Made by a program: the position numbers and the translations under genes. This document shows, in pieces, positions 7,629 to 45,456 of a DNA stretch of 64,000 nt. Where the stretch lies: contig NZ_CP063845.1 of assembly GCF_021018745.1 (NCBI RefSeq), forward strand, positions 4,154,001 through 4,218,000, in the 5' to 3' direction. Under the pieces are notes generated by a model, which had not been told where the DNA came from, ran no database searches, and saw only the letters and a list, made by a program, of their open reading frames with translations. Every line of letters starts with the position of its first letter. Positions within the stretch are counted from its first letter, which is position 1. This DNA is from Gloeobacter morelensis MG652769. Its GTDB lineage: Bacteria; Cyanobacteriota; Cyanobacteriia; Gloeobacterales; Gloeobacteraceae.

Positions 7629-7694
7629 CGCCTGCTCCTGCCCAAGACTTTCCGGCCCATCGTCGCCCGATACCGGCCATGGGCGCAACGTTCT

Positions 7695-8333
7695 TCAATC
7701 GGGCCCAGGAGCAACGGCTCCGGGGTGGATGGGGGCTCCCCGTCCGTACAAAGGTTCCACCTCGAACCAGCCGGGGCGCAGGCCGCCCTCGAAGCGTCCG
7801 TGCGCCAGATGCATCAAGGCAGCGATGGGCGGCTCGGGCACGGCGTCACCCGCGATCACCCGGCAGCCGGGCGGCAAGGTGCCCTGCCAGGCTTCCCAGT
7901 GCGCTTCGAGGACCAGTGCTACGTCCCGCAAAGTGATCAAAACACCGTCAACGCGCTCGTAAAGGGCGGCGTAGCGGTCGCCGCGGCGGGCATCCAGCCA
8001 GACGGCCACCGGGCCATGGCCTGGGTGAGCCGCCGCCAGGGCTTCGAGGGCATTGACGCCCAGAAGCGGGACAGCGAGCGCCTGGGCAAGGGTGCGCGCC
8101 GTCACCACCCCCAGCCGGGTGGCCGTGAAGCTGCCGGGGCCGATGCAGATGGCGATCCAATCTAGATCACTAAAACGCCGGGGGACCAGAAAATCCCGCA
8201 GCCGCACCTGCAGCGTCTCGGAGAGGGCGCGCCCCTCTGCGAACAGTTGCGTGCGCAAGCTCTCCCCCTCCCAAAGGGCAAGGCCCAGGGTGTCGGTGGA
8301 AGTGTGCAGACCCAGCCCGGCGGTGCCGCTCAA
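7695..8333 (-). CDS. tsaB: tRNA threonylcarbamoyladenosine biosynthesis protein TsaB
   Basis: Partner of TsaD (with TsaE) in installing t6A37 in ANN-decoding tRNAs. The 212-residue product has the ASKHA-type N-terminus (LGLHTSTDTLGLAL), the GPGSFTATRLGV block near residues 65-76 and ARRGDRYAALYE near 115, all typical of TsaB. It is near the usual size (about 210-230). The likely start is TTG at 8333, overlapping the stop of the upstream aldolase-like gene by 4 bp (TTGA), which supports that start through translational coupling. Confidence 0.9.
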   Translation of the reverse strand: MSGTAGLGLHTSTDTLGLALWEGESLRTQLFAEGRALSETLQVRLRDFLVPRRFSDLDWIAICIGPGSFTATRLGVVTARTLAQALAVPLLGVNALEALAAAHPGHGPVAVWLDARRGDRYAALYERVDGVLITLRDVALVLEAHWEAWQGTLPPGCRVIAGDAVPEPPIAALMHLAHGRFEGGLRPGWFEVEPLYGRGAPIHPGAVAPGPD

Positions 8334-43495: not shown

Positions 43496-43927
43496 TCAGG
43501 CCGTCGTGCGCAACGAGTCCTCTGCTTCCGCGTTGTCGATGCCCCAGAACTGCTCGGTGAGCAGTGGATTTTCTTTATTCCAGTAGAGCAGAGCGACGAT
43601 CAGGGACTGATAACCGATGTTGCGCGCTTCGCCCTCGGCTTTGAGCCAACGCAGCAGATCCGCCGGCATGCGGATGCTGATCAAAAACCGCTGCTGCGGA
43701 TTGGCCGTGGTCAGATCTTCATCGAGCGACGTGCGGGGCGGACGGGCGTGCTTGCGCCACTGCCGTTGATAACGGTAGACCGTGCTGCGGGCAAGGTGGG
43801 TTACTTTCATCAATTCCTCCACCAGTTGCCCGGCATTCATCGGCAGTTGCCCGGCACTCTCCAGTTCGCGCAGAGCGCTCTTGATGCGATCTTGCGTACT
43901 TTCAGTCATGCTTGTCTGGCTCTCCAT
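43496..43927 (-). CDS. HTH plus RHH-like DNA-binding regulator
   Basis: 143 residues. A helix-turn-helix-like segment QLVEELMKVTHLARSTVYRYQRQW (about 35-58) precedes an RHH-like segment FLISIRMPADLLRWLKAEGEARNIGYQSLIVALLYWNKEN (about 84-123). Two DNA-binding folds in one small protein suggest a transcription factor. ATG at 43927 is used; 43909 is an alternative. Two tandem TGTACGAAT repeats one helical turn apart lie 27-45 bp upstream, a likely autoregulatory operator. Convergent with the GT4 gene. Confidence 0.68.
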   Translation of the reverse strand: MESQTSMTESTQDRIKSALRELESAGQLPMNAGQLVEELMKVTHLARSTVYRYQRQWRKHARPPRTSLDEDLTTANPQQRFLISIRMPADLLRWLKAEGEARNIGYQSLIVALLYWNKENPLLTEQFWGIDNAEAEDSLRTTA

Positions 43928-43953
43928 GGGCTTCAAACCTTGCACAGTGCCAG

Positions 43954-43972
43954 TGTACGAATCTGTACGAAT
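43954..43972. promoter_or_regulatory. Tandem TGTACGAAT direct repeats, probable operator
   Basis: Copies at 43954-43962 and 43964-43972, offset by exactly 10 bp, upstream of the leftward HTH-RHH gene. Spacing of one DNA turn is typical of cooperative binding by small repressors. Confidence 0.55.
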
Positions 43973-44059
43973 ACGCCACTTCCATCTTTTGGCGTAAATG
44001 TTGGCATGCGGTAAGTAGATTTGGGGATCAGCTCGGGCAAAGCTTTCCGCTTTGAGTGT

Positions 44060-44692
44060 TCATCCGGCTGCGCGCAATCGCTCATCGAGAAATTGCGCAA
44101 GGGTTTCTATCCAGGCCAGTTCCTGCTCGGAGAAACTGCGGGGTGCTGCACTTCCCACCAGCAACACACCCCGATTGCCGAGCGGTTGGCAGACAACTGC
44201 CTGCAGGTTCGAAGGCAAATACGCAAATTCGATCCGCCCCGGAAACAGCCGCAAATCGACCAGATAGACCGGCCGGCCGGTGCGCAGCACCCGCTCGACG
44301 ATCGGTCCTGCCCTGAAGGGGGATGGTCCTTCAAAGACGCCCGCGCGCATGGCCGTCTCCCCCTGCCACCACACGAGCAGCACCCGGGCGCGGGTGTGTT
44401 CCAGCAGCAACCGCCGAATCAGTAGCAGTGCCTCTTGCGCATAGGCTAGGCGCTCCGACCGCTCGTCGATAGGCTCGCCCGCCAGTTGCACTTCTTCCGG
44501 GGGCGCCGGCTGGACCTGCTGCCACAAAAGCCCCACCAGCACCAGCACCGCGGCCATGGCAAGCCCCAGTGCGTCGGAGCGGGTCTGCTCGGGGGCGAGG
44601 TTCGCGGTACCCAATAGCCGGTTGAGCACCACCAGAGTGCCCCCCAGGAGACCCACGGCGATGGGCAGATTGCGCAGCAGCACCGACGACAT
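44060..44692 (-). CDS. Cofactor assembly of complex C subunit B (CCB, DUF2930)
   Basis: 210 residues. Two N-terminal membrane helices (LPIAVGLLGGTLVVLNRLL and LGLAMAAVLVLVGLLWQ) followed by a GAF-like soluble domain with the family blocks GPIVERVLRTGRPVYLVDLRLFPGRIEFAYLPSNLQAVVCQPLGNRGVLLVG and RSFSEQELAWIETLA. Relatives of plastid CCB2/CCB4 attach the covalent haem ci to cytochrome b6 of the b6f complex. ATG at 44692 overlaps the hisF stop by one base (TGATG), so the two genes are translationally coupled although their pathways differ. Confidence 0.85.
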   Translation of the reverse strand: MSSVLLRNLPIAVGLLGGTLVVLNRLLGTANLAPEQTRSDALGLAMAAVLVLVGLLWQQVQPAPPEEVQLAGEPIDERSERLAYAQEALLLIRRLLLEHTRARVLLVWWQGETAMRAGVFEGPSPFRAGPIVERVLRTGRPVYLVDLRLFPGRIEFAYLPSNLQAVVCQPLGNRGVLLVGSAAPRSFSEQELAWIETLAQFLDERLRAAG

Positions 44693-45456
44693 CAGCCCCG
44701 GCGCACGGGCACGCCGTGCGCGGCGAGGTGCGCTTTGATCTGCTCTACGGTGAGTTCACCGTAGTGCAACAGCGAAGCGAGCAGTGCCGCCTGCGCCTCC
44801 CCCTCGGTGAGGGCGGTGCGGATGTGCTCGCAGTTGCCCGCCCCCCCTGAGGCGATTACCGGCAACTGCACCGCCTCGGCCACCGCCCGGGTGAGGGCTA
44901 GATCGTAACCGGCCCGGGTGCCGTCCGCGTCCATGCTGGTCAGCAAAATCTCCCCCGCCCCCCGCCGCTCGCCCTCGACGGCCCAGGCTACTGCGTCGAG
45001 GCCGGTGGGGGTACGGCCGCCGCGCACGTAGACTTCCCAGCCGTCGGTACCCGCGCGGGCGCGCGCGTCGATGGCCAGCACAATGCACTGGGCACCGAAG
45101 CGTTCGCCGGCGCGCGAAATCAGTTCAGGGTCGCGCACGGCGGCGGAATTGATGCTCACTTTGTCTGCCCCGGCGTCGAGCAAGGCCTGAATCGTATCCA
45201 GATCGCCGATGCCGCCGCCCACGGTCAAGGGGATGAACACCCGCTCGGCGGTCCGGTAGACCACGTCGAGGAGGATCGCCCGCTTTTCGTGGGTAGCGGC
45301 AATATCCAGGAACACCAGTTCATCTGCGCCCTGGTCGTTATAGAGCTTCGCCAATTCTACCGGGTCGCCCGCGTCGCGCAGCCCGACGAAGTTGACCCCC
45401 TTGACCACCCTGCCCGCCTTGACGTCGAGGCAGGGAACGATGCGCTTTGCCAGCAT
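44692..45456 (-). CDS. hisF: Imidazole glycerol phosphate synthase, cyclase subunit
   Basis: Closes the imidazole ring in histidine synthesis with HisH supplying ammonia. The 254-residue TIM barrel shows [19 protein letters not shown] (catalytic D11 region), [31 protein letters not shown] (second catalytic Asp), [12 protein letters not shown] and [13 protein letters not shown]. Full length. ATG at 45456. Its stop overlaps the CCB gene start; upstream it faces atpG divergently across 76 bp. Confidence 0.97.

Follow-up and report, generated by a model that had tools for sequence, protein, structure and literature searches.

RHH repressors of the CopG/Arc type are generally single-domain proteins. 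The small regulator studied here is encoded in a 64-kb window (the whole stretch of DNA analysed, 64,000 nucleotides) of Gloeobacter morelensis MG652769, and differs from them in having an HTH domain of about 57 residues ahead of the RHH. This N-terminal part is alike to TetR/FadR- and resolvase-type HTH domains, but the protein has no ligand-binding domain and all its profile matches lie below cut-off. The nearest relatives are the BrnA antitoxins (PF14384), which carry a C-terminal RHH and are described as controlling their own operon (PMC11980606). The RHH segments are alike (ISIRMPADLLRWLKAEGEARNIGYQS vs ISIRIHPKVLAWAKEEASRRGIGYQT), but the regulator has no BrnT partner, has the extra HTH, and matches PF14384 below the curated cut-off. 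No paper on this regulator family was found in the open-licence literature.

Six Gloeobacteraceae genomes (G000 to G005) were compared. G000 is the own genome, G000-G003 belong to the genus, and G004 and G005 represent the other two genera. Every one of the four genus genomes has three family genes, and the other two genomes have two and four. Among 386 genomes of the phylum, full-length matches came from the own genome only and eight others matched the RHH stretch alone; the genomes listed with a match exclude the other five family genomes, which were covered by a separate family search. A scan of GTDB contigs returned nine loci, each from a record of Gloeobacterales or of Aphanocapsa lilacina (corresponding to G002, G004 and G005). 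Searches of phages, plasmids and viral contigs found no relative of the protein, and PHROGs gave weak matches only, mostly unnamed. The HTH+RHH family appears to be confined to Gloeobacteraceae. The features discussed below are collected in Table 1.

Table 1. Positions in the window of the regulator gene, its upstream elements and its upstream neighbours.
Feature	Position	Strand	Remarks
HTH+RHH regulator gene	43496..43909	-	Preferred start ATG 43909, 137 aa
Regulator gene, alternative starts	ATG 43927; GTG 43945	-	143 aa; 149 aa
Proposed -10 hexamer, TACACT	43952..43957	-	Inferred from position and conservation
TGTACGAAT, copy proximal to gene	43954..43962	+	Overlaps -10-like TACACT; one mismatch in G003
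GTA-N8-TAC dyad formed by the two copies	43955..43968	-	NtcA-type half-sites, inferred
TGTACGAAT, copy distal to gene (ATTCGTACA on gene strand)	43964..43972	+	Exact in 4/4 genus genomes
Upstream element CATTTACGCCAAAAGATGGA	43981..44000	-	Resembles group B element TATCTCTATCCAAAGACGGA: 12/20 here, 16/20 in G003
CCB2/CCB4-family gene (cofactor assembly of complex C)	44060..44692	-	PF11152, E 4e-68; co-directional upstream neighbour
hisF (presumed, named from sequence)	44692..45456	-	Next upstream neighbour

Counting from ATG 43909, the HTH-like segment spans residues 24-54 and the RHH-like segment residues 73-108. This two-part make-up, proposed in the first-pass annotation, was borne out by recurrent Pfam matches over 15 aligned family members (CopG_antitoxin in 15/15, HTH_29 in 14/15 and BrnA_antitoxin in 9/15), all below curated cut-offs; the HTH_7 profile was also matched, again below cut-off. 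The AlphaFold model of the regulator has a mean pLDDT of 73. Its residues 1-57 align with TetR-family HTHs at low Z (best Z 5.7, rmsd 3.9, 54 residues) and residues about 70-119 align weakly with Arc (VIA Z 4.5, below 5; rmsd 2.3, 43 residues). RHH proteins have a strand followed by two helices and dimerise by swapping the strand; here helices are modelled at 83-95 and 100-113, and the strand is absent from the monomer model (pLDDT about 53 at 61-80). A Foldseek search with the model gave no match at E <= 0.001, and a sequence search of solved structures gave one match, at chance level. Profile-profile comparison with a set of five BrnA-like sequences from other cyanobacteria aligned the RHH segment over 30 columns (hhalign probability 96.8), indicating an RHH domain of BrnA type, with Pfam and NCBIfam scores below curated cut-offs. 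The C-terminal BrnA/CopG-type RHH should dimerise.

The same alignment, together with the weak matches to CopG_antitoxin and BrnA_antitoxin, would fit an orphan antitoxin from a toxin-antitoxin pair of the BrnT/BrnA type, a reading that we consider very improbable. In our reading, a BrnT-like ORF lies beside three of the five cyanobacterial BrnA-like proteins and a partial one beside a fourth. The own genome gave no BrnT (0 matches), the BrnT of G001, G002, G003 and G005 is not near any family regulator gene, and no small toxin-like neighbour is conserved. With none in the own genome and none linked elsewhere in the family, the BrnTA antitoxin was rejected as a candidate.

The regulator had been described as 143 residues long, which assumes a start at ATG 43927. 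The motif M-T-E-(S/N)-T at ATG 43909 is common to all six orthologues of the regulator (group A) and to the group B paralogues, and GGAGAG lies 10 nt ahead of this ATG in the window. The G003 orthologue has no start codon at the position corresponding to ATG 43927. Since MTE(S/N)T is conserved and G003 lacks that upstream start codon, ATG 43909 is the more likely start codon, giving 137 aa. An in-frame upstream extension reading the repeats as IRTDSYT in G000 and G003 was rejected, as there is no ATG, GTG or TTG in frame upstream of the repeats and the peptide is not common to the other orthologues. Within the gene, a 13-bp direct repeat of period 21 (window 43823-43856) encodes the doubled AGQL of AGQLPMNAGQL; the first AGQL copy is AGHL in G001 and G002.

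The two identical 9-bp words reported ahead of the gene are indeed exact copies of TGTACGAAT at a period of 10, lying 45-63 nt upstream of ATG 43909. TGTACGAAT is the reverse complement of ATTCGTACA, and the pair reads ATTCGTACAGATTCGTACACT on the gene strand. One perfect 9-bp repeat of period 10 was observed in the window against 0.25 expected (first-order Markov, 40 simulations, largest 2). The repeat alone is not significant as evidence, and other spacings could also have been picked. Allowing one mismatch at most, the window contains 12 instances of TGTACGAAT where 4.9 are expected; 1 of 100 shuffles reaches 12.

Conservation of the pair follows the limits of the genus. At <=2 mismatches it occurs once in each genus genome (4/6 family genomes), always at the regulator gene, and in neither genome of the other two genera (0/2). 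The expectation that the repeats recur upstream of orthologues therefore held for the genus, with a mismatch in one genome, and failed for the other two genera. Further pairs, which the first-pass annotation had suggested looking for, are absent from the own genome at up to 3 mismatches. Exact pairs separated by 0-30 bp occur nowhere else in the six family genomes, no inverted pair ATTCGTACA..TGTACGAAT was present (0/6), and the viral contigs searched held no copy of the repeat block.

Three of the genus genomes resemble each other too closely to be of use here; the informative comparison is with G003. Between G000 and G003, 24 of 25 columns match in the repeat block, compared with 99 of 161 (about 61%) from the end of the upstream gene to the start codon, a difference indicating that the block is under constraint within the genus. 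Conservation of 24/25 was equalled by 38 of 20000 column shuffles. The sole change in the 25-bp block lies inside the gene-proximal copy. Constraint also extends past the repeats into ACTGGCA, so the conserved block is not the footprint of the repeats alone.

Comparison with the paralogues points to a promoter. The genus promoters of groups A and B have in common AGATTyGTACwCT at -52 to -55. This sequence overlaps the gene-proximal copy, and its last bases form a -10-like hexamer (TACACT, TACTCT or TATACT). They also have in common an element at about -90, reading TATCTCTATCCAAAGACGGA in G003 group B and CATTTACGCCAAAAGATGGA in the window. Over 14 bases, AGATTCGTACACTG of G000 matches AGATTCCTACACTG (G003), AGATTTGTACTCTG and AGACTTGTATACTA (group B) and AGAGACGTATACTG (G005, at -70) at 13, 12, 10 and 11 positions, respectively. 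The best summed 14-base score over the repeats is 54, whereas 30 shuffles gave maxima averaging 46.8 and never above 50; the close pair G000/G003 inflates this significance. In G004 the 14-base window matches at 8/14 only, though TACACT itself is present. No TTGACA-like -35 accompanies TACACT and a sigma-70 consensus scan found no promoter. On balance we lean towards reading the conserved block as the core promoter of a small transcription factor specific to Gloeobacteraceae, possibly with an overlapping repressor site. Against this, a -10 role leaves the conservation of the distal copy unexplained.

Other family promoters have features of their own. The group C promoters carry a conserved block with TATAGT, kept at the group C gene in 6/6 genomes, and a search with this block gave an additional 4 sites at 3 mismatches. 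Around TATGTTTGATGTATAGTTTG the block is conserved across genera (L033:8490-8560 and orthologues). The group C paralogue is co-directional with, and downstream of, what we take to be geranylgeranyl-reductase-like and glycerophosphodiesterase-like genes in G000, G003, G004 and G005. Group B leaders contain an inverted repeat, TTGACCAA-N7-TTGGTCAA, just ahead of the start (L031 about 8100-8125; L029 about 7690-7720), one arm being TTAACCAA in G000. This repeat may serve as an operator, or form a hairpin in the RNA close to the ribosome-binding site.

The 10-bp spacing of the words and the RHH-like C-terminal domain, found by both profile and fold, would fit a scheme in which RHH dimers of the regulator bind both words side by side on one DNA face and block RNA polymerase at the -10. 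The autoregulation described for BrnA and the restriction of the pair to the regulator gene in 4/4 genus genomes point the same way. Self-binding might however be expected to place the pair at the group B promoters and those of the other genera, and it is absent from both. The recognition segments STVYRYQRQW and RFLISIRMPADLL are identical between groups A and B, except for Q-to-K and R-to-L in the G005 orthologue. Nevertheless, the group B promoters examined lack the pair, as do two of the six orthologues, whose proteins are 84% and 77% identical; the operator is not conserved wherever the DNA-reading residues are. The distal copy is likewise absent from group B and the other genera, and the promoter sequence common to A and B comprises the 43981-44000 element and only one of the two copies. 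A search with the A/B upstream element pattern returned 6 matches in 6 genomes against 8 for a reversed-pattern control, and 5 of the 6 are the family's own promoters, the source of the pattern; no regulon was found. Self-repression is possible within the genus and unsupported outside it, and as an account of the words we regard it as tentative and rather unlikely.

The GTAC core is palindromic, so that a pair of copies at this spacing of 10 bp doubles as the dyad GTA-N8-TAC, the NtcA consensus (PMC3898017). Nitrogen status could then repress the gene through NtcA, or another CRP/FNR factor, bound over the -10. NtcA is encoded in 6/6 family genomes, and a GTA-N8-TACA site lies upstream of glnA in 4/4 genomes examined as a positive control. 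The dyad is present in 5/6 group A upstream regions, against 0.03-0.04 per shuffled region. It reads CGTACAGATTCGTACA in G000-G002 and CGTACAGATTCCTACA in G003, with a single substitution inside N8, and G005, although without the repeats, retains CGTATACTGAGATACT at -64. Four GTA-N8-TAC sites occur in the whole window. Elsewhere in the family the dyad was found in 0/4 group B, 1/6 group C and 0/2 other upstream regions.

At glnA of G000 and G003 the promoter has the canonical NtcA form, GTA-N8-TAC-N22-TAN3T, about 135 nt upstream (L089, L091). The regulator shares the (C)GTA-N8-TACA half-sites with the NtcA-activated glnA promoters but has no TAN3T 20-24 nt downstream of its dyad. This is not the canonical activated geometry and the usual NtcA activation is thus unlikely; a dyad overlapping the proposed -10 would fit repression only. 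Moreover, the dyad is missing from G004 and from every group B region, that of G005 is in a different register, N8 is conserved at 7/8 in G003, beyond what an NtcA site requires, and the motif was chosen after looking. Nitrogen control through this dyad appears improbable to us. LexA was also considered as a binder because of the GTAC cores; the Gloeobacter LexA is described as divergent and was left out of the study in PMC3091678.

Gene order does not tie the regulator to exopolysaccharide synthesis, although it had been placed at the end of the exopolysaccharide genes. The glycosyltransferase adjoins the regulator in G000-G002 only and is convergent with it. In the more distant G003 and G004, which keep hisF and the CCB2/CCB4-family gene, the convergent neighbour is a different protein (652 and 626 aa, respectively). 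hisF and the CCB2/CCB4-family gene adjoin the regulator in G000-G004, 5/6 family genomes, and in G005 hisF, the CCB2/CCB4-family gene and the glycosyltransferase are all non-adjacent to it.

In the preferred core-promoter reading, the gene-proximal TGTACGAAT copy would overlap the -10 region, assigned here as TACACT on the gene strand, and would be the ancestral element, a looser form of which is common to the paralogue's promoter. The distal copy, one helical turn upstream, would be an addition confined to the genus. If the site is regulated, a repressor most likely docks across the -10 region. As to its identity, the regulator itself is a doubtful candidate and an NtcA/CRP-type factor a fairly improbable one, and the absence of any repressor, leaving simple promoter conservation, is about an even prospect. 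A bolder scheme for this family, private to an early-branching cyanobacterial group, which we regard as quite improbable, would have the HTH+RHH dimer clamp its own promoter and cross-regulate the paralogues, with RHH on the tandem words at the -10 and HTH on the 43981-44000 element about 27 bp upstream.

As it stands, the locus offers a modest promoter footprint together with a regulator family confined to this lineage, of which each genus genome has three genes. If an HTH+RHH dimer did read two different words within a single promoter, it would be unusual among compact regulators, and an RHH domain of toxin-antitoxin type would have been recruited to ordinary gene control in Gloeobacter.
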